NCBI GenBank assembly: GCA_002224055.1
Contig: AZLU01000361.1
Location: 1-25,701 of the forward strand
DNA length: 25,701 nt
Origin: Pezizomycotina sp. ARF18
Lineage: Eukaryota; Ascomycota
Reading direction: 5' to 3'
In this document: piece by piece, positions 1 through 22,977 of the stretch
How the letters are laid out: the number at the start of each line of letters is the position of its first letter
How positions within the stretch are numbered: position 1 is the stretch's first letter
Program-made: the position numbers and the translations under genes
Notes under the pieces: generated by a model
What the model was told of the DNA's origin: nothing
Seen by the model: the letters and a program-made list of their open reading frames with translations, nothing else
The model's database searches: none

Positions 1-2790
1 ATGTTCCGGCGTCTCAAATGTTTCTTCTTTACCTTTTTACTTACGACTAAGTCCTTTAAATATTGATTCTCTCATTTTATCTTCTCAAAGTATTTTTCTT
101 TTGTTTCTCTTGCCAATTTCCTTATTATATCAAAATGAATAGATGTATGGGGTTACAAAAAAAAAAAAACAATGATATAATGTCATATGGTTTTCTTCTT
201 CTGATGGGCATCTCATTTCTTTCTCTCTTTCTTTTATATATTTCGATGTTGGATTCATTTCACGTACCTCCCATACGCATGTTACTATATACATATATAT
301 ATACACAACACCGATCGTGTTCGATCCTTTGTACGCCCTCTCAAGATCTCTCCCTGCCTGATCCTGTTTATGTCAGGCATGATCCTAGTGCTACTCTCAT
401 CATGTACATTTTTTCTCTCTCTAATTATTTTCTTTGTAATATTATGTCGAGTAGGAAGTATATATTTTATTTTCATTTCACATAGTATCTTCATACGCCG
501 CTCAAAACTTGAGGTACGAGTTGCTTCAGACATTGTAATTAAGTAAGAATAGCTCCTGAAAAGAACGGAGAATGGTAGCAGGAGAGTCTTTTGTACGATA
601 AATACTTGAATATTTTTATCGGCATTATATAATAGTAATCAAGAATAACTTGTCACCACTCAAGATCCTTCGATACTTGATATCAAAATTATCTGGATCG
701 GTTTTTTCAATATCATATCTTCGTGGTAAAGATCGACGAAAGCTTTGATTGGTATGCACGATTGAACACGTTCCCGTTGCTAGGTTCGGCGGCACCTGGT
801 CCTTACAGGCTCTCAGCTGCTGCGTCTCACAAGGGCTATGGAAAGAAAGGCTGCCAGTGTGTTATCTAAACGCATGTCCTTCGCAATTCCTTCCGACTTG
901 CTGCCAATAAAGCAATTCTTTGCCCTTTCGCACGTCGATCGCCAGACCTGACATCAATATATGTAATGTGGGGCTGAGGAACAAAAAGGATGAGAATTCC
1001 CCTAGAGTTTCTCGCTCATTACATCGTCAATTTTCATTTTATATACTCCGTAGCTTGCGAGAGGACAGATATTGCATTCTACGTCGGCGTTCTGCGCAGT
1101 CAAGGTGCCGAAATATTCTCACCGTCTGGAAGACCGGTGTATGTACCGGTTACGCCGTGTCTACCTCAGAATCAACTCGGAATCTTTTCTCTCCACGAAA
1201 GGTATCGATGTCACGGTTAAAATGAAAATCGATGAAGCAGATGGTCTCTCGACCAGGACTTCCTTTTTTTTTTTTTTTTTTTTTTCAATAACATTAAAAA
1301 GGCCGTTTAATTGAAAACAGAAATTAAAATAGCCTTAGGGAAATAATAATTTACACTGGCGTCAAATAATACAACAGCTAATAGGTATTTTAGCTGGGGT
1401 TATGACCGAAAAAAATTCGCGCCCCTCGCGCGCTACTTTTATTATAAGGTAAGACACAAACGACATAATATCGCACTGAAAACAGAGACAATACGACATC
1501 ATCGCGCATCCACCACAAAAACAAAAAAAGCCAACCCTTTTCTTTCTTTCAGGCGTACCTACGTTAGATCATTTAGCTTGAGCCTGTTTCACTTTCTTCT
1601 TTTCATTCCAACATGCAATTGGTTCAGCCGAAGTATTCCCAAAGGAAAGAAAAAAGAAAAAAAACTACAGCGACACGAAGTAAGGCGCTTTTAGCTTACA
1701 CGTGCTGCGCGCCCCGTTAAAGGAAGGTGCCGTTTTTACGACTTCTCTCTTCTCTTCTCTTTTGATGTACGGGTTCGCCAGCATTTTTGGATTTGGTGGA
1801 GCTAATGCAAGATTAAATTAGAACAGAGGGGACAGGACATGTGCAGTTCGCCATCGGATCCAATTCGTCACCAACCTGGCGGATCTCGCACTACCGATGG
1901 TCCACCATCACTTGCCCCCCCCGGGAGGTCCGCTTTTTTTTTTTTTTGGTTTTAGTATTTGGGTATTAAGTTCGAATCAGTGAAAGAGAAATTCCCCCAT
2001 TCTGAATCCTGTCCTCAGGCTACTGTTTTTATTTTATTTTATTTCTTGTTCTTTATCCACCGGTCTGCTAGCAAAGTCATGTTGTCAATTGTTAAAGCTA
2101 ACGATAAGCAAGACAGCCTAGAGCTCCACAGAAAGGCAGGCAAGCACGAAGCAAAAGCAAGGCAAGCAGGCAGAGGCCGATGGTGCCTGGATAAATTACC
2201 GCTAGCCACCCCCAGACGAGTGGATAACAATTAAACGACTTGGGAATTACGACAAATAAAAAAAAAAAAAAAAAAAAAAAAAACTTCGAGGAACTCTCCT
2301 TGGACATTTTTTTCTTTACACTGCGGTTCTGCGGTTCCTCCTTGTCGGGCTCCACATTTTATTTTTTAATGCCAAATCTCAACGGAAGAGGGAAAAGAAC
2401 GCCGAGATAGGCACTTGGGCACTATAGGCTACACCGACATGGAGGGGAAGGCAAAAAGAAATACTTATGGTTTAAGAAGAAAAAAAAAAATAGAAGGGCC
2501 GGGGAATAGAGATAAAGCAAAAAGGTACACGTCTAAAGTCCAGAATTGAACAGCTCTCGGCCTCTGCGCCTTGTTTCGAAGATGGCGTGCTTTAGGAATT
2601 TTATAGGTAAACGCATCGTATTTGCGCGCTGATTTCTTCTTCCTAAAGTTCTTTCCTTCTTTTTTCTCTTTCGCCACCACCGCCCAATGAGCACCATCGC
2701 GATATGCGATCGAAGGATCTAATCCTGTTACAGCCGCTTGCATGATGCACGCGTGCATCGTTTCCTTCTTGCTTCTTGCTTTTTCTTTTT

Positions 2791-2792
<2 letters not shown>

Positions 2793-2831
<39 letters not shown>
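2793..2831. repeat. T39 mononucleotide tract
   Basis: An uninterrupted run of 39 T, the longest homopolymer in the window, preceded by a pyrimidine-rich stretch from about 2761. No gene edge lies nearby. Runs of this size are known to be unstable and to exclude nucleosomes; here it may also be the tail of an old retroposed copy, but I see no flanking duplication that proves this. Confidence 0.9.
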
Positions 2832-5800
2832 CTAATGGATTAGAGTTCAAGGACAACTTTTGTGAATTATTACTTAGTATTTTTTAAAACGATCCAAAGC
2901 GAAGGGAAAACAGGTGGTTTACGATCGGTTGAAGCACTGAGATATCCGAAAAACGCCTTCGAACACGACAGGACTAACCTCCACCGGGAAGGAACGAAAA
3001 GAATCCCAGGTGCACTTTCTCAAGTGAAGAACCATAAGTCCTCAGGTTCTCCCCGGCGGAACTAAAACTAATTGATTTGTCTAAGGTACGAGGAGAACAG
3101 GCTAGTTCTACTTGAAACAATCACATCTGGAGAAACTGCGGAGGTTTTGGTCTTCAAAGGATATTCATGCAGTGCAAGTTTTGAATCGATAAGACACTTG
3201 CGCTGAGAGCTATTTTATTCTCTGCTCTTGTTGGACTATCCTTTTCATTCGAAGTGTTTGTTCGACGCCGCCGAGAAGGCAAAGGGTAAATGAAGCACGC
3301 CCCTCATCATCCAGCCCGATTCAAGAAGGGCAACGACCGTCAGGTACGATAAAGTTCTTAATTTTCATTTTCCTTTTTGTTTTTGATAGGTCCCGTTTAT
3401 AGGTCCTCCTCGGCGATTTTGCTGGCGGTTCTTTTCTCTCTCCAAAATAATAATAATAATGATAATAATAATAGTTCCGTCTATCTAACTGTTTTATCTT
3501 TATTTTTTCCCTCATTCCTATCATGAGAGGTAAATAGCGCAAAGTAATATGCTCTGCAGCGTACATGAGCGTTGGGAAATAATAATAAGAATTATTTTGA
3601 AGGGAAAGGAAAATATTCTGGAGTTTGAAACTCAACCGAATACCCGCTGTATAGCCTGCTCTGCCCGCGCCCCCAGAAACGGTCCGATTAGCATTATTCG
3701 CCGTTTGGGCTTTGGGGGCGGCCAGGGAGAACAAGGAACATCCTTGCAAGAAATTGTTCAAATGTTTAAGCTGGTAAAGTAAAGATCTACGTTTTTACCT
3801 TTATTTTCGGGAAAGGAAGAGGACGGCGTTGAGTATGAGTGGAGAATACTGAAATCTAGAATTTCGGGCGGTATTGACGGGTTGCAGAAGCAATTTGTCT
3901 CCCCTCCTTTCTTGTCCGTGTCACGACTTGCTCAATCGCCGATTTTGACGATCAAACGATTTGAATAGGTGCAACGTATAATCCCTTTGTGGCTTTTTTC
4001 CCTTTGCAATAATTGAGTGAATAATCTTGGGCTTTCAGCTGTCGTTGTGAAAAGTCGAAACGCATTCCCCGAGAGCAGCGACTTTTTCAAACATAAGCTG
4101 GAGAATAATAAGTATAGTCTTGTATTATACACCACATCCGGTACGTATCGTACGATTATTCCTCCTACTAAACACTATACTTCTTCTAATATACAACCTC
4201 CCACGACTAATTTAGGGCGTATCATCGTCGGGTGATATAACGTGCTAGCTATTCTTGAAACTTCATAAAAAAAAATTGCATTAATAGCTTAGGCTCTCCT
4301 CAGACTTTCTTCTTGAATGATCATTACGATAATGTGATCACGATTTGGAATTGCAAATAGTTTACTATTTCGTATTAGGTCGGGGAATACGGACTTCTTC
4401 TCTTATATCAGTGCCCAAGTCACGCTTCCTTGACTATTCGATACTGACCCTTACCTTTTTCTTACCTCAAGAGTATTTTATCCGCTCTGGAAATATATAT
4501 TCTCCATAGTAATATAGTAGAAATGAAGACCACTAACGCATGGACAGCAATCACTCCAAGGGGTTTCTCATATTAAACCTTATCTAGGATACGAGAACGC
4601 CTCATGTGCTCTTCTTTTAAAGTGCTTACATTCATATGCAGGGATTCTAACAAGATCAGATTAAGAAGACGAAAACCTGAACAGACCGGATTGTGGAGTA
4701 ATACTTTCCTTTATGTTGATAAACCCGTCGCTCTCTATCCGTTTCCCAAAGTATATTGCCGTTTGCGGTTTAGCTCCTGTTTTATCTTGACCTGCCAGGT
4801 ACAAGCTCAAGTTTCCTTTTGTCATCTGGCTAACTCGGCAATCTTTTCTTCTAAACACGCTACCTACAGTGCGCTATGAGGGTTTCGGTTTTATATCCTT
4901 CTAGAAAGATGAACAAAGGGAGGGCTTTTAAGTTTTGATCGCCTTCAGAAACCCTTTTTCTGGCGACGGACAGGGGTGTTTTCCTAGTAAAATAAGGTAC
5001 ATTCTATAGTTTTCTTTTTCTCACACTTCCTCTTTGTTTATTTAACACGAGGCATCTCATTATCGGAGATAGACAGATTCCAGATGAAAAAGTTTTTTTT
5101 TTTTTTTTACTACTGCTTTGATCGTGCAGAAACATTTGCGAAGAAATGTGGGGCTCCATGATTCGTATTACATACATGCATTGATCTTTACTTACGCCCA
5201 TTTGCAAGAAACAACAAAAAATATAATCAAAAAGGAATCCAACAGAAGAGCAAAATACTTAGGAAGTGGATATAGGATGAAAATCATCCTTTTTCCAAAG
5301 CTTCTAGAAAAGGGAAAACATGACGTTATTTTGCGTTGAAGATCTCAAGCCCGTTTTTTTAATAGCTTTTCCTCAATGATGTCTGCGATCGAAAGGGACG
5401 AAATAAGGATTCCACCAATTATACCTCTATTTCCCCGTCCGCAGGACTGCAATGTGCCTTAATTATTTCGGTTAAGCAGGAAGTGCAGTTAACAATAAAT
5501 CATTATGATATCAGGCATGATTATTATTGCTTTGTTACAAGATGAAGGCAAGAAAGCGTAAGTAAAGGGTTCAAAGAAAAGTAGAAGAGCTATCAGCATC
5601 GCTATACCAAAACGAGTAACAAATAACAAAAAAAAAAAATATAGGTATTAACAAATTAACTCATTCATGATCATGAGAGATATCTCTCCCTTTTTTTTGA
5701 TGTACTTAATTAAGGGGAGAAAAAAAAATATAAGAAACAATACTAATAAAATGTCGAAGGATGATATTTTTGTTGCTTTTGTCAGCTTTTGTATATTTAT

Positions 5801-6027
5801 CACGTTTAGGAAATTATTTCCAAGGATTCGTCGTTTCTGAGGCTGAAAGGCGTATAGTGGAGAATACAGTGGCGTCCCGCTTTTCAAGTAAGAAGCAGAG
5901 GTACCAGATTGCACCGTTACCCGAAGTCTCGCCGATCACTGCATGTAAGATCCGATTGCCGACATATATTAGCCCCAGAACAAGGGAAAGGAAAAAAAGA
6001 AAAAGGAAGGAGCTATATTTGTTTTGA

Positions 6028-6044
6028 CGGGGTTCTAGACCCCG
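6028..6044. repeat. Small perfect hairpin in 3' flank of RGS-LOV gene
   Basis: CGGGGT and ACCCCG form 6-bp perfect arms around a 5-base loop TCTAG. It lies about 120 bp beyond the stop codon of the minus-strand RGS-LOV gene, so it may fall in that gene's 3' untranslated region. Function is not known. Confidence 0.4.
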
Positions 6045-6160
6045 ATCACGATTGCCGTTACTGTGGCTTACAAGAATCACACACACAGGATAGATAGAGA
6101 GACATTTTTGAGGTACTTTGTTTTGGGCTTTTGTTTTACTTGGCTTCTCTGTTGTCTAAC

Positions 6161-9100
6161 TTACATGGCACGCAGTAGATCAAGCTGTCTTCTTCCTCGG
6201 CGAGCAGCGACAGCGTTGCTATAAAGTGATCCCCCTGCGAAAGGAAGCCCGGATCCGCTCGATGTGGGACCTTGAGTTGCGGCAAAAGCTCTGGATCCTC
6301 GTGAGAAAATCGATGCCGTGTAGCTTTTAGTCCTCGGCGCGGACGTTGGTGGAGACGTGCGATACGTAAACCTAGTGCTACCTTTGCTCCCGTCGCTGAT
6401 CATGAGGAAGAACTGTCGCAACGAAGCAATGGCTTATATTAGCTTTTCTAGTTTTTCTTATTGTACCGAAATGCGTGGAGCGAAACCGAAAGAGAAGCGA
6501 GGGATACTTTAATTTACCTTGCTAAATCGGTCCTTAAGATATCTGACGGTGTCAGCCATCATAGCGAACGTACGTTCTTGTTCCGCATGGTGCGAGTGCT
6601 GAAGAGAGCTCCTCTTGTTACTTTCGCTGTCGATTCTGGAAGATTTGTGCGTTCTTCCACGCTTTGGCTCCTGCGCGATTTTTTGTCTGGTTCTCTCCAC
6701 ACATCGGAGATCGCCTCGAGCTCCCGCTTGCTGCGTTTTGCCTTCCGCGGTGCCAAAGTCTTGCATGAGCTGCTTCTGGCAGACAGTAAATAGAAAATTG
6801 GTCAGGTCAAAGTGCGCGCCGAGCCAGTACCGAGGAGTGGTCCCGTTAACGCCGCGCCGGCCGTCAAAAATTGGGTAGAGGAGCATGAAGTTGTAGAACG
6901 GCGTCGTGTTCTTCTTGCAGTTGACCAAGAGCTCTGCAACCGGTTCGTTGTTATCGATGGCGTTGTTCAGGCGGACAAGGCGGTCTATGGGTGAATGCGT
7001 GCCGTCTCCTTGGAACGTGCGAGTGTGTTTCCCGGTGAGCTCGTCTGCAGAGTAGCCTGTAAGTGACAGGAACCCTTCGGAGGAATACCGAATTTCCTGC
7101 TTTGCGTTTGTAATACAAAAGGAATGTGTCCATGGCAGCAATGCCATGCCGTGCGTGTTTTCTTCGAAGGCTTGTTTGACCGTAGCGAGGTCAATATTTT
7201 TCGGTTCTGGCGGGTTAAAATCTTCAAGTATTGCTGCTTCGAAGTCCTCGTTGAGCTCCGCATGCGAGATTATCTGTTGCACGTAACGAGGGAATGCATC
7301 GTTGTTTAGCTTCTCGAAAGCGTCCAGTTCAATCTTGATAATGTCCGAATTGAGCTCTGCCGTCGGGTGATCCTTGGTAAGGGCAGTCTCGAGCTCTCTT
7401 GCGAGAACCTGCGCGGTTATCTGCGTGTTCGCAAGTACCCAGTTGCGAAGGGCTGTCCGCGGATCTTCCTTTAACTGGACGACGTCACAAATTGTGGACG
7501 TGCGCAGCCTCCTTCGTCCTGCCTTTCTGATAGAAGTGTCGTTCTCGTCGTGGATGCTGTCGCAAAAATTTTGCAAATTTGGTCCGCATTATCTCATCAT
7601 CAAGTATAGCCCGTAGTCCCGGCTCGTCCATGAGCGCACCGCACGGGTGCTGTCTTAATAATGCAGTAATGGAGCCGCTGATAGGGGATTCAACATTCGC
7701 ATTCGTGTTAAACCTAATTTCTAGAAAATTGCTAGTGTCGATGCTCGACATGAAGGATACCACGCGAGAATTGTTCATTTCTGGATGCACGGAGAGATGG
7801 GGAGGAAATCTCTTTATCCCTGAAGGCCTTTCGGAGCTCAAGTCCTCGACAGAATCGTTTCTCGAGAAATGTATGGTATCCGCGTCGGATACGGTCGATA
7901 CGTCGTCATCTCTAATTGTATTTTGATCGGTAGGCACAGAAGACTGCCGATTTATAGGTGGTTTACACCTATCATCGGGTGAGTTGCTGGTATCAGAATC
8001 AGAGAAGAAAGACATGACACGACCGTTTGCGTATGAGAGACGCAGGAAAGCGTTATTTGTTCGTCGATCACATTCTTCGGAATTTTGTTAGCCTTATCAG
8101 TATTCATATTCAAGGTCGTGCTCCCTTAAATCTACCTTCCCCACTGTCGGAAGTAAAAGAGAATGGACGGCTGTTGCGTGATCTTTGGTCGGCTGAGAGA
8201 CATAGAACCGACTTATCGCTGTGGAATCGTTGGATAGACCTCCGTACCGCGTTTCCATTGCTGAGTATAGTTTCCGGAAGGCTCTGGGTATCCAGGTTGG
8301 ATCCGAAAGATACAACCCGACTGCCTCCTCCTACTGGGTCAAGCAAAAGCATTGAAAGTGAAGCGTCATCGGAGCTGGTCGCTCTGATACCCCTAGCAGC
8401 ATGTGCAAAAACCATTCGTGATGAACTTCTGTGGAATTTGCAAAGAGCCAAGCGCTCGGATTCTCTTTAAGATACTTATCCACCATCTTCTCCAGCACTT
8501 CTATATCGAGCTCTGCTAGCTCTTCGCTGGAAAGGTTGGAGCGGACGTGGTGAGCAGCTCGGATGCGGTCGAGGAGGTAGCCCTCATAATCGGAGCCTTT
8601 CCGACCCCGTAAATCTATCGATGGTCTAGACTCCTGGGCATCGTCCTTTTCCGTCTCCGCGCCTTGCTCAACCCTTGTTTCCTTCTCTCCCGGAATAAGC
8701 TATTTAGATCTTGCGGGCTAAAGGACAATTGCCAAGACTCCGGTAACTTCGATCGAGGGGAAATTTGTGGTAATGGCTTCCCTAAATTCTCATTGTCGTC
8801 TTTACCTTGTGCTGGAATGGGCCAAGCTTTTCCTCCGGTTCGATGGCGGAGACGGAGTACGGATACAGGATACCTGGCCTTGTCCCCGCTTTGACCAAAA
8901 ACTCCAAACTCGGCCATCGTCGGTGTGGAACAGGGTGTGTTCATGTCGGAGTACGGGAAAGCCTTGAACTCCTCGCTATCATCAACTTTAGGTAATAGAT
9001 TTACCGTCGAAGCTGAAGCGGAAAGCGAGGGTGAAGCCTGCTTTGATTCGAAAATCTTCGTGCTGTTCCTTTGGCCCCTTCGCTCGTTAGCTTTAGCCTG

Positions 9101-9764
9101 ATGTTTTGTGCGGTGGTCTTGATACGGTTCTCCTGGACTGGTGGTAGTTCCTGCTCCGTAACTAAAGTGGACATGGCTGCAGAAAGCTTCCGCTCGATGA
9201 GAGGAGTCTCCGGCCATGGAAGGTCTAGCTGCTCCGTCGGGCTTGTCGTCATATGCACGTGCACCGGTGACGGCAGCATGTTCTGGATGAACGGCGATCT
9301 TATCGGGGTACAGACCACGCCGCTAAGAGGCTGGTCAACATTAAGACCTTGTACGAAGAGCCAGGAAGATATTTGTTAGTATATGACGACAAAGATAAAT
9401 GTTAATACGAAAATGACAAATTCAGACACAGAGTCCTACCGTGGACATCCGTCGGTAACGAAATCTCCAGCATCTTCAGGTTCCTATTCTTCTTGCTCTT
9501 ATTAGAGCCGTTGCCGTATCCAGCGCCCTTGGCCAGCTTTTTAGCCCTCGTCAGTGCCCTTTTGATGCTGACGGAACGCTTCATGAGGCCGCTTTTGCTG
9601 CTAGGGTTGTCGTTCTGATGCTGTCCCTCATGCTGCGGTTCCGGCGGAGGTTTCGGTGGAGTAAGGACCTGGCTGATGCTGTGTGCATGCCTACGCTGTT
9701 CCCTATGTACAATATCAACGTCGACGCGTATCGATGGCCATGCGCTGCGGTGTTTTGGATCCAT
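6161..9764 (-). CDS. RGS domain plus PAS/LOV-like domain signalling protein, frameshifted
   Basis: Four exons on the minus strand: 9764-9440, 9347-8136, 8074-6518 and 6412-6161, stop TAA at 6163-6161. Introns are 92 bp (branch TACTAACA), 61 bp (CTAAC), and 105 bp (CTAAT), all GT..AG with matching phases. ATG 9764 is the first in-frame ATG after a stop. Predicted length is about 1115 residues once frames are reconciled. Residues 1-650 are Ser/Pro/charged and probably disordered, with a basic cluster near residue 65-100. An RGS fold follows (7661 to about 7270, ending in AFPRYV), then a PAS/LOV domain (7135-6797) with GFLSLTGYSADEL. RGS domains accelerate G-alpha GTP hydrolysis; RGS-LOV proteins are known from fungi as blue-light sensors. 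Frame changes occur near 9060-9100, 8689-8691, 8442-8444 and 7564-7568. The 5' half could be a separate gene, but exon phases favour one. Confidence 0.78.
6797..7135 (-). other. PAS/LOV-like domain lacking adduct Cys
   Basis: The order of elements is that of a LOV-type PAS domain: FCITN, then IRYSSEGFLSLTGYSADELTG, then the flavin loop, then LLVNCKKNTTPFYNF, then YWLGAHFDLT. The canonical flavin loop is GxNCRFLQ. Here it reads GKHTRTFQ, with Thr (codon 7024-7022) in place of the photo-adduct Cys and His in place of Asn. The terminal strand normally reads VQLDVT; here it is AHFDLT, so the Gln that relays the light signal is His. No neighbouring frame offers a Cys at the site, so this is not explained by a nearby indel. 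The Asn of FYN is kept. Confidence 0.8.
7270..7661 (-). other. RGS domain region of the RGS-LOV gene
   Basis: The segment opens with LLRQHP and GLRAILDDE, which resemble the first RGS helices, and closes with LDAFEKLNNDAFPRYV, which resembles the conserved RGS end (FD..Q..I..LM..D.FPRF). In the middle, SIHDEN sits where RGS domains carry S.EN.LFW. The expected FW after it is not visible, possibly because the frame changes at 7564-7568 and perhaps again just downstream. Whether the domain can act on a G-alpha subunit cannot be judged until the frame here is settled. Confidence 0.65.
7734..8322 (-). repeat. Three spaced copies of an RV(V/M)SF..S..DT motif
   Basis: Within the disordered region just before the RGS domain, three 12-residue segments match: SRVVSFGSNLDT (8322-8287), GRVMSFFSDSDT (8024-7989) and SRVVSFMSSIDT (7769-7734). 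Spacing in the spliced protein is about 79 and 85 residues. Copies one and three differ mainly at synonymous third positions, which supports this reading frame and the 8135-8075 intron. The pattern resembles a repeated short binding or phosphorylation motif; the RVVSF copies fit the general [RK]x[VI]x[FW] form of protein phosphatase 1 docking sites. Confidence 0.7.
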
Positions 9765-11066
9765 GTGTTTTTCGTCTCTCGTCCACAGCCGGCGTGTACC
9801 TTGCCCACACCTTCGGAATGCGATGGAATAAGATGATGCTTTCTAGCGCTGGACTTACTATATAACTACTTAGATTATTAAATCAATATATATTAATGTT
9901 ACAAACAGGAAATAGGGCGGGCGGGCACCGAAGCTTTGTCGACTTCTTTTTTTCTCGCTGAGCTCCTAAACAAAACGAACTTGTAGGCTTTTCTTATTGT
10001 CTCAACTAGCAAGGCAGGACAGCAAATTAGATGTTATAAAACATTCAAAGATACGGGTCTAGGACTAAAGAGTGGCCTTTTCAAGAAGAAGAAAAGGCGA
10101 GAGGGAGAAGAGGGAGAATTGCCATCCAAAGTTTAACTAAAAGCTAAGGATTTCTCGAAATCGAACAAAAAAAAAAAAAAAAAAAAAAAAAAGCCGCAAC
10201 ACCAACACATGTACACGATGTACCTGACTAGCTTGTAGAATCGGTTTATATTAGTCGTGAGATTGTGCATAGTATTGGCGGCATAATTTGAAGAGCGTTA
10301 CAAGGATGGCGCCTGACCCTCTGTGAAAGAAACTCGAAATTAACTTTTACACACGATACTTGATCATGTAGCTCATTGGACTTAACCGCGCGTTGGGAAC
10401 CATTACCCATCGTTAGCTATTCCTGGAGTTGCAATCTCTCGATCTGATTTTTTGCTTCTAGTGCTTCTCTAGCTCGCTTATGCAATGTCACAACTATCGA
10501 ATCCTTTGACAATTAAGGCCAAGCACAGTGCAAAGGACAAATAGCTCTACTGTTATTGTGGCAGTCCTGAACCTTGGATATTATATGCAGGTGAATTCCC
10601 TCCCCCCCCCCCCCTTTTTTTTTTTTTTTGTTTTTTTTGGTTCGTGGACAGGGAGGCATTATGAAGAGTTTCAACAGGGGTAATTCATTCCCCTCGACGC
10701 GATGTTCATCTCAAAATCTCATGATATAATTGTGGTGCTAGGTTTATATCCTTTGTTCGTTTAAAAGAAGGCACCCTTTGTCCTATAATTAGCGACACAT
10801 CCCGTGTTTATCAGTGCCCGCGAGTGCAAAAACAGGCACAGTTGTTATATACATTGCTTAGCGTCACTTAAGTTCTCATTCTCAAATAGCGCTAATGCAG
10901 GTACGTACAGAAAGCCCAGCAAATGATATAGATGTACGATTTTTTCTTTGTTTACAATCTCTACGCAGCCATGGCCCGAAAAAAAGAGAGAGAAAAAAAA
11001 AAAGGGGGGGGGGTAGTATTCCCCAGTTAGCTGAGAATCCAACAAACGAGATCGTTGTTTCTCTCC
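9765..11066. other. Intergenic: RGS-LOV upstream region and homopolymers
   Basis: This 1.3-kb gap separates the start of the RGS-LOV gene from the stop of the dehydrogenase gene; both run on the minus strand. It contains A26 at 10167-10192, C13 followed directly by T15 at 10602-10629, and A11 followed by G10 at 10993-11013. The last two tracts lie in the probable 3' flank of the dehydrogenase. No further gene or clear promoter element is visible. Confidence 0.7.
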
Positions 11067-12800
11067 CTATTCCTTATTCTCAATGATTACCTTGACGCTC
11101 TGGGTCTGAGGATCTACTACTGTCTGAAACGCCTTTTCGGCCTCCTCCAAGGGAAACCTATGGGTCACGAGCTTTCGAACGTCGCCCAGTATTCCGCTCC
11201 GTACTAGCTTTATGGCTTTCGGCCAAGTGTTTGCGTACCTGCTCGGAATAATAAAGGGGAGAAAGGGGAGGAAAGGGAAAGAAAATTGTAGTTAATAAAC
11301 CATATATCCAGGTTTTCAAAGTCCGAGAGGAACTCTCCGGATGGAAATTCCGTTTCCTCCCTCTTTATCATCGTAGGAGGAATAAGATGGATAACAATAC
11401 CTATACTGGAACCTCAAATCTACTTCCTTGACACTACAAGCCATAAATGGCATTTCGATCGTGGGCTTTCCTACTCCTATAACGAAGACGGTGCCTCCGA
11501 AGCAGACACTATGTACCGCGGTTGCGATGCTCGATCCAACTCCTGTGCACTCGACTGCCCTGTCCGGACTTTCGCCGCTAAAGTACTTCTCATTCAGCGA
11601 TGCCGCTACAATTTCCGGTTGAGACCCCGCTCCCGACGTAGGCACCAGGAAAGTCTCAACGGAAGGGACGAGCTCCTTGGCAAACTTTAGCCGCGAAGCG
11701 TCGATGTCCGTAATCACTATCGGCGTTGCGCCGGACGCTCGAGCACATAGGAGCACCGCCAAACCGATAGGACCTTGGGTTCATTGTTAAGCTTCAAAAA
11801 TGGCACTATATAAATTGGTATAATAATATATTTAATCTTAAATAAAACTTCGCACAGTTCGCCTTACCTGCTCCGCCGATCAGGAGACTGTCACCAAGCT
11901 TCAAACCCGAGCGTTCGAGGCCGGCAAGGGCAACACTGAGGGGCTCCAAGATGGCGCCTTCTTCGGGTGATAGACCATCAATTTTGTGGCACCACTGCGT
12001 CAAAGGGGAAAAAATTAATGAAAGTGTGTCAAGTCACGGACATTTACACAGGCTCTGGCAGCTGTATCTTAAGAAAATAACCGGCAAGAAGAAGAATTCT
12101 GGGGAGCTCACCATCGCGGGATGCTCAATATACCTTCTGAGCAGTCCAGGAACCGGGTATGTGGACGCAAAATTGTCCGGGAACTCGCAGCCGTTGTACC
12201 TGCCATTAAGGCACGGTTTGCACTTTAGGCAGGGCAGCGACGGCTCTATAGCTACTAAGTCTCCAGGCTTTAAACCTTTGACAGATGGGTGAACCTTGTC
12301 AAAAAAAAAAAAAAAAAATTACGGATGGTTGCACGGAAGCGAAGTTAGCGCATGTCTAGCTCCTACGAAGACCACGCAATGATAGTGCAACAGCATTCCT
12401 ATTCGCGATCTCCCCTTCTTCCCCACCGCTAAAGAGAAAATGATCTTGGTATGTGGGATTCATTACTTTAATGATTTCGCCGGACGATTCATGCCCAAGT
12501 ATCTGAGGCCCTTTGACAATTAACTGGCCAATCGCTCCTGATTTCCAAAGTGTACGTCGGAACTTTATTATGATTCTCAGGTTATTAATTGTTGAGCAAC
12601 GCCTCAAACAAAGAAAAAAAAAAAAAAAAAAAAGTCGGGAGGTCTCCTTACCCGCATATTCCAGTTGCTCGCATGCGTATTAAGACATGCCCTTCCTTGA
12701 CCTCACCTGCCTCTACATCCTCCGACTTTGGTACGGCTTCAGACACGTATAGCTTGTGCTCTGGATCTGTGTAGACCCCAATGTTTGGTTTCAACGGCAT
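11067..12800 (-). CDS. lad1: L-arabinitol 4-dehydrogenase (zinc-dependent MDR family)
   Basis: Catalyses NAD-dependent oxidation of L-arabinitol to L-xylulose in fungal L-arabinose catabolism, in the cytosol. Six exons: 12800-12652, 12562-12467, 12294-12112, 11994-11868, 11773-11401 and 11238-11067 (stop TAG). Introns are 89, 172, 117, 94 and 162 bp. The predicted 366-residue protein fits the family. Visible are ATGICGSD (Cys49), GHESSGE (His74, Glu75), structural zinc Cys 104/107/110/118, the subfamily signature [26 protein letters not shown] (Glu160), Rossmann GAGPIG at 184-189 followed by ITDID, and C-terminal [23 protein letters not shown] and WCHKI favour arabinitol over xylitol or sorbitol dehydrogenase. 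The six exons sum to 1100 nt, one short of a full frame: the T3 run at 12549-12547 must be T4 to read VHFWK. Substrate choice is inferred from sequence. Confidence 0.93.
12295..12651 (-). other. Dehydrogenase introns 1 and 2 with long T tracts
   Basis: Intron 1 (12651-12563) starts GTAAGG, carries T20 at 12633-12614 close to the donor, and has a TTAATAAC-like branch point. Intron 2 (12466-12295) starts GTAATG, has a GCTAAC branch point and then T18 (12318-12301) six bases before the CAAG acceptor, an extreme polypyrimidine tract. The short exon 2 (12562-12467, 96 nt) lies between them. Confidence 0.85.
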
Positions 12801-13217
12801 TGCTAGCCTCCCTGCAAGATCAAGGATCAGCTAAAGTGAAAGCGATAATGGTACGTCTGAAGAAAGTACCAAGGCCGTTGCTTGCCTCTGCTTTGCTTCT
12901 GCTTGGGAGCCCACGTCAGGAAGAATGAAAGCCTTAGTCGATCGCGATATCTTTGTCTAGATTCCGAAATTTATTGCAAAAAAAAAAAAAAAAAAAAAAA
13001 CCGTTGATCACGGAATTGAGCGCTTTTCCGTTGTGAGTACTAGTCAGTTACGTTCCCGATCGCAGGACCTTGCTGATTTTGTAACACACAAATAGCGGGG
13101 GCGTAGAAGAAACGTTGCAATGCATAAAAAAGTCACTGAATAAAGACGTCAAAAGAATGAGGGGAAAAGAAGCAAAAAAAAAAAAAAAAAAAAAATGAGG
13201 GGTAACGTAGTAACCCA

Positions 13218-13238
13218 CCCCACAGAGACGTAGTGGAG
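13218..13238. promoter_or_regulatory. Possible paired CreA-type sites upstream of dehydrogenase
   Basis: CCCCAC (13218-13223, GTGGGG on the other strand) and GTGGAG (13233-13238) both fit SYGGRG, the binding consensus of the carbon catabolite repressor CreA. They lie 10 bp apart in opposite orientation, about 420 bp upstream of the dehydrogenase ATG. Pentose catabolic genes are commonly under CreA control. The motif is short and frequent by chance, so this is a weak call. Confidence 0.3.
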
Positions 13239-13408
13239 GCAAAACAGGGATAAAAGCTTTTATTATTGATGTTAACGTTTATGTCTGTCTAATTTATCCC
13301 TCCGCGCTTATTTTATATAGCTATCCCTTTGTCTACCTCCAGCCTCAAGAGATGGTGCCGTGTAGCGTGTAACAAAGGCGGGTAGGATCAAGGGACTTCC
13401 AGCGTTGG

Positions 13409-13431
13409 GATCTACGTACGCGTACGAGATC
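13409..13431. repeat. Near-perfect 23-bp palindrome with CGTACGCGTACG core
   Basis: The 12-bp core at 13415-13426 is a perfect palindrome. GATCT and AGATC flank it as matching arms, offset by one base. It lies about 610 bp upstream of the dehydrogenase start. A dimeric transcription factor site is possible; no specific factor is recognised. Confidence 0.6.
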
Positions 13432-14187
13432 TTAAGGATGCAGGCAAACAAGTTGAAGTGTCGTTGGCATCAGGAATACCAATAGAACATACCACCACTG
13501 TGTTCTTCAAAGCATTCCCTTAAAGATTGAGAGTGAGTCAAAGATGCGTTGGGACTTGGATAATCTAGCAATATAGTTTTTTTTTTTTTTTTTTTTTTTT
13601 TTCTCTAAAGGAAATAATAATGATAAATACAAGGATCTTCCTGATTATACTAAAAGCTTTCTATCAAGCATGTATACTCTAAAATGCGAATAAAGAAGTG
13701 AATATATATAAATGAACATGAACATGGCAATTGATGTCGGCAGGGTGTCTTTGTTTCGATGGGAAAAAAGAGGAAGGAAAATGAAAACGGGGCAAGTTCC
13801 GCCGGCATTGTCATCGGCGACAAAGACCAGCAACAAAGGAATTAACATCGATATCAGAGCTATTCGTTGAATCTCCTAAATTTACCACAATGATCGAACC
13901 CATGCTTTAAATTCATTGTCTCCTGAAGTGATATGAGCGATCGGTATTCCTTTGAAGAACTATTTCCAATGCGGAGGATGACCGCCATTGGAAGCCAGTG
14001 CGGTGGGACGTGTGCGCGGACAAAGGGCCAGAGTATACTATTTTTACTCCCTCCTGTCCACCATTCTCCTCTTTATTCCAGCTCAGGGTTCGAGATGTAC
14101 GCTGCACCTAGTTTTGGCGGACGTTAAATCCTAGCACCAGGGGCTCATTATACTTCAAGTGGCTATCTAAAGCCCGAGTTAACACTA

Positions 14188-14211
14188 ATTAACCGGCGGT
14201 CGCCGGTTAAT
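14188..14211. repeat. Perfect 11-bp inverted repeat, ATTAACCGGCG arms
   Basis: ATTAACCGGCG and its exact reverse complement are separated by two bases (GT). The arms pair fully over 22 of 24 positions. The GC-rich core stands out from the AT-rich surroundings. It lies about 250 bp upstream of the TATAAATA at 14459-14466. It could be a dimeric protein binding site or a hairpin; no known site is recognised. Confidence 0.7.
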
Positions 14212-15319
14212 GATGATCGGTTTGAACCCATGGCTTCCTTGAACACGTCCTGCGCCCGATATGATCACTGTCAATTTTTGTAGAAATTTTACTCATACTA
14301 GCTTTACGTAGTGGAAAAAGCGCAAAAAAGTCTTTCATGATTAGGGGAATATCGCCCTGAGGGTCGAGAAGATTCGGAACCGCTCAATCATTCGAAATCT
14401 ATTAGTTATATATGTATAGAGGAGGAAAAAGGAGAGACGACAACCTACAGCGTACTTGTATAAATACCACCGTCTTCAGGCCTTCCTCTTGCAGCTCCAC
14501 AGTCGTTGGCTCTCTCTCATATTCACACTTACATATAACAATACGCGCGTATACGCTTCTAATACTTAATTCTGTACTACCCAGGCCGTTCTGACAAGCT
14601 ATACTTAATATTTAATTCCAGAAAAACGATTATATATATTATTGTTAATTCTACTCGCCTTGTACCCTTGTACCCTTGTGGTTCTACCTATCGAGCTTGC
14701 GAAGAGTGTTTTCTAATATATATTTTCCTAAAAAAAGAAAAGAAAAAGAGAAAACTGTTTTCAAACTGCTCCTGTGGCTGTTGTTCTTCGTCATATTGTT
14801 ATATCTAACTGCCCATTAACTTGGATCGTTTGAGTCAAGCCCAGTCGTTAATATTTCGGGTTGCTTCGGTTTATTAATCGAATTCTTATTAATCCGCACG
14901 GGCTTCTCGAGCTGAGTCTTGTAATCGTCGACATTCGTGTCATTTAGCCTTGGGTTGCGATATCGTACTGAACGCTTTTGTGCAACTGTATTCGCCTATT
15001 CCTCCTGTTTTAGTTAACTATTATTGACTACTATATTCCTTATTTGTGCTACCCTCCGAAGCCCAACCGCCATTCCAAACCCATTCGTTTTCCACCTTGA
15101 TCGAATCCTTTTATTTCTGGCTTCCGCCTCCCGAACTTACCCTAGCCTAGACCTCCAGAAAGTTTCAAAAAGAGTGAGATAGTTGGATCGGCCCCCCTGT
15201 GTACCCCTTTCCAACCGTCACTGTCGTTAGCGAGCTATCAGCTTTTCAAGGCCAAGCTCTTTCAAGCTCCTTATCACCCCTTATGTAGCCTTTGACTCGC
15301 TATTGATCCCAAGTTTCCT

Positions 15320-16297
15320 GTGTTGCGAATCTTTTACCATCCTATAAAGCCTGAAAACTCATTTTTACTCGAAGGCAGAGTTCTCAAAAACAATTATCCT
15401 GTAGCTGGGGTACTGGTATCGACGTCAACAGGAGCAGCTAAAGACCATTCCATATCGCCACAACGGCCAAACATCCCATTTAAAGGCGGCCCGTTGCCTG
15501 GATTAGCCCATAGTCCTCGCCCTTCCTCTAGTAAACTCTTGATAAAACAGGCGAGACGTTACGTCAACTAAGGGTTTCCTTTTTTTGCCCTTCTAAGCGG
15601 CATTCCTCAAGCTACGACGCCCGAAGCAATAGCGTCAGTTCAACGAAGACGAAAAAGAAACAAGGAGGAAAGTCCTTAAATAACCTTTTTGGGCGGAGGT
15701 ACTCTGGGGGCGTTCATGCTATCGGTTTATGGCCGTGCAGCAAAAAAAGAAAAGAAACGAGCCGAAAGCCTCGAGAACACGCTCCGAGTAGCTAAACAGC
15801 AACGAAAAGGTCGTCAAGCCTAACAGCAAGAAAAGAACTCCTAGGCGCTCGACCGGCGATAGCGATGAAGAAGAGGAAGGAACGGAGGCCGATGTGGCGC
15901 CTGAAGCCGGCAGCAGGGTGCGAGCGGCTTGATAGATACGGACGCGGATAATGAAAACGAGGCGCCGGAAGAAAGTCTGAGATGTGTCAAGGAAAAATTA
16001 GAAGAGGCAAACTGCCCGCCACGTGATTTGGAAGGAACCTGGATGCGGTGCGACCCAGTGTCCCGGAAGCACAAGGAATCGATTCAACACGAGATCCACA
16101 GAGCTAAAGCCACTGAGGGAATGCATAGAGATTTAAAGGAGCGCCGAACTGTGGCTTCGTCCCTCATCATCAAAGCCACCACGAACCATTGGTTTAGCAC
16201 GCAAGCGTGTCGCGCTCAAAGACGTATGCTGCGAGAGCTCCCTGCTTCAAAGGCAACCCCGAAACTTGAATATCCAAAACTGCTCTACGTGGGCTAA
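15320..16297 (+). pseudogene. Unrecognised broken coding-like region
   Basis: Successive plus-strand frames look protein-like but do not connect. 15320-15571 encodes 83 residues from the first ATG. Near 15705-15820 a glycine-rich hydrophobic stretch (GGGTLGAFML) leads into a Lys/Glu helix (KKEKKRAESLENTLRVAK). From about 15790 the frame shifts to a basic segment SKKRTPRRS followed by an acidic run DSDEEEEGTE. From about 15920 it shifts to a 125-residue charged segment containing EEANCPPRDLEGTWMRCDP and ending at TAA 16295-16297. The shift near 15928 is repaired by one extra G in a GG run, the same error type as in the known genes. I recognise no domain. It may be a nuclear or coiled-coil protein, or the gag-like part of a decayed element. 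Confidence 0.35.
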
Positions 16298-19200
16298 TTT
16301 GAGAATAAGGCTGCTTCTAGGAGCTCAATTGAAGGGAGAAACATGCTCATTACCATTTTTTTGGCGAACATCGGCGTAGCATGGTGCCATTGTGACTACA
16401 CCTTTGATAAATCGCAGGGGCGTATCTCTTTCAAAGGGCTTTTAAATGGAGCAGCAATGTCATGTTCAGTTTTCGAGGTTACCGAATACTATCGCTTCGT
16501 GGGTTTCTTATGTATGCTAGAGATAAGAGGATAATTGGTCTTCCAGTTAGTTCATCGTTCTGATCAGATTTTTAGTAATAGGTGCGAAATGCAAGTTAAT
16601 TGAAACAGATGAGATAGCCACCATTTCGAATCTCTTCAAGTGTGCGCAGTGAGCAGATAAATTCTGTCTCGCCAGGACAAGAAGGGAAAGAATCTTTTGT
16701 TGAACAAAGCAAAGATTCGGTATCGATATATCAACCGTCTCCACTAGTAGTATAACTACGGTCGCTCGCCAAAAAAGAATCAAGTTCAAATATGGATGGA
16801 TACCTAACAAGACGTCCGGTTTGCGAGCTCCTCCCTTTATAATCACCGTGATCGTAGATTGAGCTTGCATATCCTATATTTCTATCGTCGTGTGGAAAAC
16901 CTGTTTGGAAATTTTTTTTTGGGTCCGATGCCGGAAATACGGCTAGTTAACAGCAAAGACGGATGCAACGGGGCAAAGTTTCGGCACCTCGCAGCGCCGA
17001 AGCTCACAAGCAGGCGCCCGACCGTAAACGCTCTAAAACACGATTTATAAATAGTAGTATTAATACCGATAGAGTAATAGTAAACGAAGGATCTAGAGGC
17101 TAAGAATACTACTACTGACTTGCATTCTGTGTTGCATTTTAAAACGTCTAAAACAAATTTTCCGATATGCGTGTCATTGCTACATGCATGTCTAGCCTTG
17201 CATTTGGAAAGCTGCAGACTTTCGCAGCCAGCGATATTAAAATTTAATACCGCAACGTAATTGATCGATCGTGAGGCCTGTGCGAATCACTTGTGAGAGA
17301 GCTTTACATACGCATTTTTGCTCCCATCATAGCTAACATTAGCTGTAGTAAATATAAATAAGTAGTAATGAATATTTGAGAAGGGCATGATTATATGACG
17401 CAACTACACGAAGACAGCTTAAGACGTCAGACAACGTCGTGAATACAATGCAGTGCTACATACGCTAGCAAACCTAATGAAATATTCCTGGAACTTATTC
17501 GCTGGGCCCTCTAGATGATATAATATTGCACCAAATCTCCCCTAGAGTGCTAAACTCCTGACTCAAGCATAGGTCGCTTACGCATACTTACTAAGAAAAA
17601 TTTTTTTTCTTCTTTCTTCTTTTGTGATATCGCTTACATTATACATATCAAAGGCGTCGGCGATTGAAGGCCAATGAATATCACTGAATTAGTATCAGCC
17701 AAAGAAGGACGAGAAAAAGGAAAAAAGAGACATGTCAAGGACGGTTCGGGTGAGCGGCGATTCCGAGACAAATAAGTTAATAGATATTAATAATATATAT
17801 AGAATATTATGAGGGCTTCGATGAACTTGGCTCTGCTGGACGTTGCGTCTATTAATGGTGTAGTCTAGTCCGAGCGCGACAGCTGAACGTCAAGAATGTT
17901 TCGCGGTCTAGCTTCGCAGTAAGATGAACCAGGATAGCAGGCAGAACATCATGTCAGATCTCATTAGACTGTTTGAGTAATCAAGTAAAACATAGCCACG
18001 AGAGTTTAAGTGGAAGATAAAACCCCTTTCAACTAGCGAATGCAAAATTTTGCATAAAACCCCCATGTGCCAGCATGTTTCCCCTCACGGATACCTTCCA
18101 CCTTACGGAAAGGTGCTTGGTTGCACTTAGATGATCTGTATAAGGCTTCCCGGAGATAATTTGCCATCTAGAAGCTTTAACTGTAACCTTCACAACACGT
18201 ATGTTCTAGATTCTCAAGCTCACAATTGCTCTTCAGAGTAGCTGCTATAGAATACAGGCAAGCAGCAGCTTGGAAAAGCCTTTAATATGTACTTTGATAT
18301 TTGCGACTGCTTTATGATGTGGGCCAGGGTATTTGTACGTGTATAGACTACTACTTAGCGATATAAATAGTGTAAGTCACCACAGAGTCAAGGGCACGGT
18401 GAAAGCGCCGTAAGTACACGGCGGAAATAAATGCGACAGGACAACACTTGATGCGATCTGCTATATATTTATATTTGAATCAACGCCAGCGTAAGTCAAC
18501 CCTTTTTTTTCCGGCGGTCGTACGGTTATACGTGTCTTATATACGTTTTAATCCCTTGCTACATATACCTCTCCATTATTACTTCCGCTAGCTCCCTTTC
18601 TTCCGAGATTTGCAATATTACTTCCGAAAGTGCGCAAGAATGCCAGGCGCACACGTTGTGTCTCGAATCGACAGTGGATTCTAGAGCTGGCAAAACTGTC
18701 TCACGGAACTAGCACTGAGAGCGAGCGAACGAGCGAGAGCATAGGCGAAGTGCTCAAATTGGGACTCCAGAATCTGCGGAACATTTGGGGCATCTTCCAC
18801 ATGGCACTTTTATCTGTGGAGCTAGCTGAACTCCAGACTTCCTCACGGCAATTGGTATTTTTCTAGACGGTTCCTCATATCTCACAAAATTGCAAGAAGT
18901 CCAAGGGTTTCGCTTGGCAAGCATCTACTTGTTCTGCTTCAAAGCATGTTTTTCTGTGACGATATTGGAACCCAGCTAATAAACCGTGTCCTATGGTTAT
19001 TGAAGTCCTCAAGGATATTCTGTAACTGGAGCCTTCCCAAGAGCACCAGCACTTAATACGTGCATTTCTCGTGCTTCGTAAACAAGGAAGTGCTAGTCAA
19101 CGCATCATAGATGCTCTTAGCGAGTTTCTCCTACCAAGCATAAGCAGCTTATTTTTACAACACTCTTCGCAAAATTTGATCTGCGAAAAGAGTAAGAAAG

Positions 19201-20164
19201 AAGAAGAAGGATTAAAAAAAAAAATGCTGCCGATGTCACCGTCTGTGCGGCCCAACGACACTAAAACAACCCACTAAATGCTCAACGAGAAAAAAAAAAT
19301 GGAAAGAAAGAAGAAAAGGAAAAGAAGGAATGAATATCTGGCTTCCAGGCTATTGGTCTAGGGGATAATCATCTTCGTTTCTCGTTGATATCTCGCACTT
19401 GTCATTCTCAAGGATGAAATGCCTTTTCCCCCAAATGGCTTTTAAAATTGCAGGGAAAGATTTTTTTGTTTCTTTGCCCGGTTATCTTCCGCTGTCTCAA
19501 TTAGCTTCGAGCCCATCTATATATATTCACTACATGGGACATCAATGCTCAGAGAAGGGAATGCCTATAGCCAAGTCCCTATATAGGCATCTTTCATCTC
19601 AGGACAGTGGAGAAGATACTGGAATTGCGAAGACGAAGAAACAAGTAATTACTTGAGAAGATTAAGGTAATTAGAAGTTCTTTTTCAAGACTTCTTTCAT
19701 TTATTCTCCAGTTGGAAGCTTTCTATCTTATATAGATTTCAGCAGAAACAAATTGAATGGGGATGATCCATCATGCATTCAAGTTTCAACGTATAATATG
19801 AAATCCAGTACAATGCTTAGCACATAAATTGACAAGCTTCCGTTATCTTTCTCATACAAGACATATCCTGAACATCTTTCCAACAATTCTCATCCGTTTC
19901 ATTTTATCTATCCACTTCAATCGATTACATAGCAGTTATTTGTCTATTAATCATCTCATAAACTTAACGTCTGTTCTTCCAATTTTTTCCGATATCATAT
20001 TATATGCCTTTTTTTTATATATTTCAAATAGTATATGTTTTTCCCAAGGACCATTTCCTTTTTGATATATTTGAAACAAACACATACTGACACATGCAAG
20101 CATTCCCCACCAAATACTACAACACCCGCCGCACCAAGTCCCACACACGGTACTGTTATTTGAT
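16298..20164. other. Long intergenic stretch, no supportable gene
   Basis: Open frames are short, and those at 16547-16870 (-), 18630-18866 (+) and 19399-19656 (+) show no domain and no partner exon. Base composition is AT-rich with few long homopolymers, unlike the flanks. I see no tRNA, no terminal repeats and no CRISPR-like array. Confidence 0.55.
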
Positions 20165-20800: not shown

Positions 20801-22977
20801 ATGATGCCGGTCATGCTGCTACAGGCTTGCTGTATCTATTTAGCTGGGAAGCTCTTGTCGCCTCACTGTGATCTTCTTTATCTATAAGGAGGCCAGGTTC
20901 AAGTCGAGGATTGTAAGTTCACTCCAAAAATTTTGAATGTCGCAATTGGCAATTGGTTTTCAGATTTGCTAACATCTAGTGTTCTACCGGTAGGCAAACG
21001 TCCCCGTCGTCGGAGTTCCGTTCCCCGGCTATATTGGGTCATGGATTGGTGCATTCTATTTCATTTTCTGCGGCCATAGGGTAAGAAGCACCCACACATA
21101 TATACGTGATAGTCCAACAGATTTCTCTTAAGTATATAAACTTACTCTGAACAATGAATCAATAGGTTATTCGTCGTGCTTACGCGGCAGCACAAAGCCT
21201 TTCAAGCTCCTATGCTTGAACGCATGCTGGTTTTTGTCTCTTCTCCCGAGGTCATTGATGAGCTCTGCCACGCGGACCCGACGGAACTTTCCTTCCTGGA
21301 AGGAGCCGACGATGTAAGGACCTGAAAAATTATTTTTATACATACCGTAGGCTGTTTGGAGTGTTTGCTGACAATTTCTGCTTGTACGCGTCTTCATCCA
21401 GGACTTTCAAATCCAGTACACCATCTCAATTCCCGTGAAGGAAGATCCATGGCATGTCCCTATCATCAGCGACAAGCTCACGAAGAGGCTCATGTCGTCT
21501 CCAGAGGTCATGCGCGACGAGATTCAAACGCCTTCGACGAGGTTCTCAAAATGAGGGGAGGAGACGGTAATGATTTATCTCAAAGGGTTCTCTTTTTTAG
21601 CATGAATACTAACATTGCTTCTTTTTTTCTTAGGTTGGACGATTTCGAAGCCCACCACTCCGCCATGTATATCTTCGCCCGTCTCGCGAACCGGTTTTTC
21701 GTTGGGTCTGGCTTGTGCCGCAACGAAGAATTTATTCAGACGTGCGTTGATTACTCTAACGATATTGCTCTCGGTGGTTTCAAGATTCGCATCTTCCCGA
21801 AATGGATGAAACCGTAAGTATCCCAAATGAATTGATTTCAACTTGAGTGTCCGTCCACGCTGACAAGTTTTGTTATCAGTCTCGTTGCAAAGTTCGTTAC
21901 TCAGATCCCAAGCTTCGCGCGATCGCGATGCGATATGTCGAGCCGATTATCAGCCAGCGCCGCGACAAAATGGAGGTCTTTGGTGGAAGGTGACCGAACG
22001 CCCGGACGATTTCTGCAGTGGCTCATGGACGGAGAAATCGAGCGAACGGGGAATTGCAACGACACGATGGACATTTGCTGCGACTTCTTTTCTTGAACTT
22101 CGCCGGAATTCACACTAGCGCCAAATGTTCTGCGTTGCACTTTACCCAGCTCCTTTCACGCCCGGAATACATGAACCCCTTCGCGAAGAGGCCGTCCAAA
22201 TGATCGCTAAATACGGTTATACGACTGCCGCATTCAGCAAGATGAGCAAGCTGGATTCTTTCGTTAGGGAGTGCAGTCGTTTCGTCTCCTCGGATCAAGT
22301 ATGTCGACGCCTTTGGCCCCTTTCCAAGACCGTAGAGTACTTTTCAAAATAGCTAATCTCCTGAGTTTTACTGTTACAGTTATTACCACTCGCAAGGTGC
22401 TGGTTCCTTACACTTTCAGCGATGGTACCTTTGTCCCTAGCCCAACTACGTCTGCACCCCGCATCATTCAATCCACAGGGACAGTCGTCACTACGACAGC
22501 GCCGACAAGTTCGATGGCTTCCGTTTCCACAGGATGCGTGAGGAGTTGAAGCGCCGTAGACCCCACGAAAACCACGACAAAGTCGCCCTGTGGACGGCAC
22601 GGCTAACAATCAGCTTTTCTTCGGATACGGCAAGCATGCTTGGTATGTTCCTCCTCTAATTTTTTTTATTACTATTACTAGTCTAACTATTGCCACCGCC
22701 TATTAGCCCCGGCCGCTTTTTCGCTTCCATACAAAGCAAAATGATCTTCCACCATCTTTTGACGACTTTCGACATGAAGTTCACCGATCCCAACCACAAC
22801 CCTTCGCCGATCAAAATCCAGACCATGTACATTCCGAACCCATGGACTCGAGTCTCCTTCCGTTATCGCCAGCAGTACGACTCCGACACCAGCTCCGATA
22901 GTGACGAAGAGGAGGTCCGGGAGGTCAGCATCAATCAGAGAAAACGACGTGCGATTCATCTTCCCGGAACTCACTAG
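20801..22977 (+). CDS. Membrane-anchored cytochrome P450, heavily frameshifted
   Basis: A microsomal haem mono-oxygenase. Eight exons: 20801-20912, 20994-21080, 21166-21313, 21402-21566, 21634-21813, 21880-22298, 22380-22642 and 22707-22977. All introns are GT..AG with matching phases; intron 4 has a perfect TACTAAC. With 14 single missing bases allowed for, the reading is 552 residues. The N-terminus (start ATG 20801 or 20804) is a hydrophobic anchor followed by YKEARFKSR. Hallmarks are the I-helix AGIHTS (309-314), ExxR as ECSR (365-368), FTFSDGTFVP-type YTFSDGTFVP, FDGFRF, and haem motif FGYGKHACPG with Cys463. NFAGIHTS, KLDSFVRE and TFSDGTFVP resemble the fungal ent-kaurene oxidase-like and related P450 families. 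Substrate is unknown. Either a gene with sequencing errors or a young pseudogene. Confidence 0.9.
22620..22715 (+). other. Haem-binding motif split by an intron inside the Cys codon
   Basis: Exon 7 ends ..GGYGKHA plus TG (FGYGKHA then the first two bases of Cys). The intron 22643-22706 (GTATGT..CTAAC..TAG) follows, and exon 8 opens with C then CCCGGCCGC. Splicing creates TGC, the axial haem ligand Cys463, followed by PGRFF. Without splicing at these exact bases no haem ligand is encoded. Confidence 0.9.

Follow-up and report, generated by a model that had tools for sequence, protein, structure and literature searches.

Single-base losses in a fungal cytochrome P450 gene and in housekeeping genes of the same assembly are best explained by consensus error

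Background

Long-read errors are mainly short insertions and deletions at homopolymers, in runs of two to eight bases, and in one long-read draft most indels were false deletions of a kind that pseudogenises genes (PMC12007338). In the mitochondria of Physarum, insertional RNA editing is described (PMC4758236). In the literature collection searched for nuclear and fungal insertional RNA editing, the papers found concern Physarum.

We describe here a cytochrome P450 gene that runs through several reading frames in a fungal assembly, and compare it with other genes of that assembly. The window, which is the whole stretch of DNA analysed, is one whole contig of 25,701 bases; the assembly comprises 46.36 Mb in 408 contigs.

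Methods

The P450 exons were joined and segmented into reading frames by codon usage only. This usage was trained on the assembly's own housekeeping genes, and switches in both directions carried an equal cost. In the profile and structure searches, the pieces of the P450 gene were searched one by one and not joined. Housekeeping genes were analysed at nine loci on nine contigs (actin, beta-tubulin, EF-1alpha, HSP90, GAPDH and four HSP70-like genes), by a frameshift-aware alignment of protein to DNA in which gains and losses were penalised equally. Four rDNA units were compared with one another over parts of about 3.1 kb each, some of whose bases read N.

Results

An eight-exon gene with P450 motifs in order

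The gene and its exons are arranged as follows.

20801..22977, + strand: cytochrome P450 gene, eight exons, in several reading frames in the assembly (from motif order, exon/intron borders, three-frame view and segmentation)
20801..20912, + strand: exon 1, one lost-base switch called at cost 5, where the sequence-only reading needs two
20994..21080, + strand: exon 2, a single open frame with zero switches at costs 5-7
21166..21313, + strand: exon 3, where the frame shifts overall as two losses or one added base would shift it
21402..21566, + strand: exon 4, a single switch in the lost-base direction (three-frame view and segmentation)
21634..21813, + strand: exon 5, likewise a single lost-base-direction switch (three-frame view and segmentation)
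21880..22298, + strand: exon 6, the most broken of all exons, bearing the I-helix-like and ExxR motifs
22380..22642, + strand: exon 7, reaching the heme-binding loop, one piece being a weak Pfam p450 match
22707..22977, + strand: exon 8, finishing the heme Cys codon that intron 7 splits

All seven introns are GT-AG and 64-88 bases long, which confirms the eight exons with intact splice sites described by the sequence-only reading. That reading also described the catalytic motifs as intact; the heme loop and ExxR are kept, the heme loop being read in unaltered sequence. In the three-frame view the motifs follow in order as I-helix-like AGIHT, ECSR, FDGFRF and the heme loop. ECSR, in one frame of exon 6, is the ExxR motif, and the heme loop reads FFGYGKHA, then the split Cys codon, then PG. 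FxxGxxxCxG is the pattern of the P450 heme loop, and ExxR marks the K helix.

Searches with the separate pieces gave little. One of six P450 pieces matched Pfam p450, weakly (E 0.037, 13.2 bits against a cut-off of 22.8), and three pieces in another Pfam search gave no p450 match. In the PDB search the last piece retrieved two P450 chains (E 0.11 and 0.37) and, at 1.5, a ribosomal protein; two other pieces found no chain. A p450 profile search of the assembly returned 66 matches, none of them on the contig bearing 20801-22977, as expected for a gene cut into short frames. Judged by its motifs, the predicted gene at this locus is an ordinary fungal P450 gene.

It is very unlikely that the P450 is a real pseudogene decaying by single-base mutation, whether or not assembly errors add to the damage. 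Against decay, the gene has kept its heme loop, its ExxR motif, all seven GT-AG introns and an open frame through its last exon. The absence of a near-identical second copy would suit decay: no second copy of 20801-22977 was found in the assembly, apart from matches of 30 to 38 bases, and the same was true of window positions 12900-20000 and 1-6400.

Elsewhere in the window, a PAS domain (PAS_9, E 7e-11) was found at 6509-9842 on the - strand, with open stretches in several overlapping frames, and this region is probably also broken. Tracts of A or T of about 20 to 40 bases lie between genes (2258-2283, 2793-2831, 10167-10192, 13577-13602 and elsewhere). No tRNAs or Rfam families were found within the window.

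Frame switches in the P450 gene are biased towards lost bases

Viewed in three frames, conserved-looking stretches of the P450 gene move repeatedly from one frame to another. Segmentation called 17 switches in the lost-base direction versus 5 in the other at cost 4, 14 versus 2 at cost 5, and 11 versus 2 at costs 6 and 7. At cost 5 the other-direction calls fell in exons 7 and 8, whereas costs 6 and 7 placed them in exons 3 and 8; in exon 8 one frame is open until the end stop, and segmentation still calls such a switch near the tail.

Simulated intact genes of 553 codons gave about 0 to 0.5 switches at most. Simulated genes with 14 deletions gave 11.4-11.7 lost-base and 1.3-1.5 other-direction switches, to which the P450 is similar, and those with 7 deletions and 7 insertions gave about 6 of each. 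When the nine housekeeping genes were segmented as a leave-one-out control at cost 6, 86 lost-base and 24 other-direction switches were called where alignment gave 93 and 10, so that segmentation overcalls switches in the other direction.

The P450 exons sum to 1645 bases, and 14 added bases bring this to 1659, or 553 codons. The sequence-only reading had counted 14 losses and no insertions, and both this sum and the loss bias agree with it; the exact 14 and the zero insertions are not provable from frames, because modulo 3 two close losses equal one insertion. What is well supported is a strong loss bias and a number near 14.

Two further arguments of that reading carry less weight than it gave them. 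The eight short runs that it named occur where it placed them and at the lengths it gave, yet the nearness of losses to runs is a weak argument when runs of at least three are so frequent that about 75% of exonic positions have one within 10 bases. The absence of stops is weak as well, as 14 random substitutions would yield only about 0.45 stop codons (3.2% each). Error draws its strength as an explanation from the comparison with other genes, rather than from stops or nearby runs.

Losses occur in all housekeeping genes examined

Lesions caused by error would have to strike essential genes as well. All nine housekeeping loci were hit, with 84 one-base and 9 two-base losses (93 deletion events) against 5 one-base and 5 two-base gains (10 insertion events), each two-base gain being equal to one loss modulo 3. 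With events treated as independent, the excess of losses over gains has a two-sided binomial P of 5e-18. This supports the deletion-biased sequence error that the sequence-only reading had taken as its main explanation. Losses numbered 3 to 21 per protein. There were no in-frame stops in the 4607 aligned codons of the nine loci, where about 3 would be expected if substitutions equalled losses (3.2% each), and this absence is modest evidence.

The aligner itself has no bias to losses: in eight simulated genes, each given 5 insertions and 5 deletions (40 of either kind in all), it called 32 gains and 28 losses. Single events are less certain at three of the four HSP70 loci, where identity to the reference is only 49-64%, and three of the five one-base gains are in GAPDH, some of them possibly alignment effects. 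Beta-tubulin is identical to a filamentous-fungus reference sequence at 428 of 440 residues, which suggests a filamentous ascomycete.

Essential genes cannot all be pseudogenes, and the lesions are not special to the P450. The same result weighs against insertional RNA editing, the much less likely alternative of the sequence-only reading, by which the missing bases would be supplied in transcripts. The frames do close if bases are added, and such editing is known in Physarum mitochondria, which is all that recommends it; here it would have to act on each of the nine housekeeping loci. We consider it so improbable as to deserve almost no weight.

Density of losses and their lean to runs

Loss rates were taken over a ten-gene set made up of the nine housekeeping loci and the following gene of the same contig as the P450.

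11070-12807, - strand: L-arabinitol 4-dehydrogenase gene, five introns, sharing 220 of 356 aligned residues with Neurospora PDB 3m6i

The ten-gene rate is one loss per 162 bases. Housekeeping densities range from one loss per 443 bases to one per 87, with beta-tubulin (3 losses in 1329 bases) and one HSP70 (21 in 1824) at the extremes, and the P450, at one per 118, falls inside. Among the eleven genes it stands second, below the densest HSP70 (one per 87) and above the next one (one per 120). By the ten-gene mean, 10.3 losses would be expected in its 1659 bases, and the Poisson probability of 14 or more is 0.15. A pseudogene confined to the P450 was accordingly rejected, as the housekeeping genes show the same lesions at densities that bracket its own.

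The L-arabinitol 4-dehydrogenase gene, about 8 kb from the P450, has one loss in 1074 bases, and its one gain, at the gene start, was judged an alignment effect. The rate thus varies sharply within one contig. That the P450 is denser in losses than this neighbour could be read as a sign of real decay; the HSP70, HSP90 and GAPDH loci, at one loss per 87 to 123 bases, are similarly dense or denser, yet such genes must work. Rates between genes are over-dispersed (chi-square 23.7, 9 degrees of freedom), a spread that differences in local read depth may well produce, and because of this over-dispersion the P450 could still hold a small local excess of real lesions.

A run could explain 51 of 65 restorable losses, compared with 62.7% for random losses, and 19 of the 84 one-base losses were not restorable; the lean to runs is only moderate. 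Programmed ribosomal frameshifting at each site could appeal to this lean to short runs, but every housekeeping protein analysed would then require between 3 and 21 shifts. To our knowledge, no fungus has such repeated frameshifting, and we rate this explanation lower still than editing.

Other genes and rDNA of the assembly

Frame changes between adjacent HMM matches were in the lost-base direction in 6 of 8 pairs from other P450s and in 8 of 12 pairs from CCT chaperonins. Combined, 14 of 20 pairs, with gaps under 40 bases, changed in the lost-base direction and 6 of 20 in the other; the pairs were hand-picked as adjacent-looking, from 15 of 66 p450 rows and 20 of 33 CCT rows.

The rDNA units showed no substitutions in the 1568-2430 readable bases compared per pair. 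With a two-base end offset set aside, they differ at three sites only, by one base of run length each, in the group I intron and two internal spacers. Such differences in run length only are what error would give, and they speak against insertional editing. Real variation between the units is another possibility, and some reads may be common to several units. Nearly clean rDNA beside broken single-copy genes fits errors limited by read depth, but is not proof of it. The two rDNA units that were searched match the 18S, 5.8S and 28S models, and the fourth unit has a weak 5.8S score because of bases that read N. The group I intron lies near the 3' end of the 18S rRNA gene, at 825-1104 in both units searched (L083, L085), and the 5.8S starts lie about 10.87 kb, or double that distance, apart.

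An RVT_1 search gave five matches, of which three lie on contig C50, which is taken to be mitochondrial. At 231,088 bases, this contig appears to be an unusually large mitochondrial genome that carries many tRNAs as well as nad genes and reverse transcriptase frames. Some mitochondrial nad matches have stops or lie in two frames; introns and the genetic code make these frames uninterpretable, and the matches do not show high-copy DNA to be clean.

Discussion

The missing bases of the P450 gene are almost certainly errors in the consensus sequence of this assembly. Losses at every one of the nine housekeeping loci, few gains, zero stops and a P450 density within their range lead to this reading. 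The errors would most likely have been left by incompletely corrected long-read data, and the true P450 would very probably be an ordinary eight-exon fungal gene with one open frame. We infer that such error holds genome-wide, that it stems from long-read technology and that the fungus itself carries an unbroken P450.

Were the losses true biology, they would amount to a new kind of gene expression; the tests point to error instead. Even with either mechanism allowed, the proposition that nuclear genes truly lack bases throughout, and that expression is restored by genome-wide insertional editing of mRNAs or by repeated frameshifting, is extremely improbable. Across the ten aligned genes, roughly one in every 160 coding bases appears to have been dropped. 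Gene losses, pseudogenes, the number of P450s and any "recoding" that this assembly may suggest are thus unreliable.

Comparison with known systems

The locus resembles fungal P450 genes in having ExxR, the FDGFRF region and FxxGxxxCxG in order and in its short GT-AG introns, and differs from them in its disrupted frames and in the weak matches of its separate pieces to Pfam p450. With the Physarum mitochondrial system it shares a genomic sequence that lacks single bases needed for the frame; unlike that system, it lies on a nuclear-type fungal contig in an assembly where all housekeeping genes examined are affected, and error explains it. It is also like under-corrected long-read assemblies, in which single-base losses dominate, lean to runs and frameshift unrelated genes (PMC12007338). 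In the bacterial draft covered there, errors made up under 0.05% of the assembly, whereas here they are far denser, at one per 162 bases. The breakage of the P450 gene is almost certainly an artefact of an assembly of this under-corrected kind.
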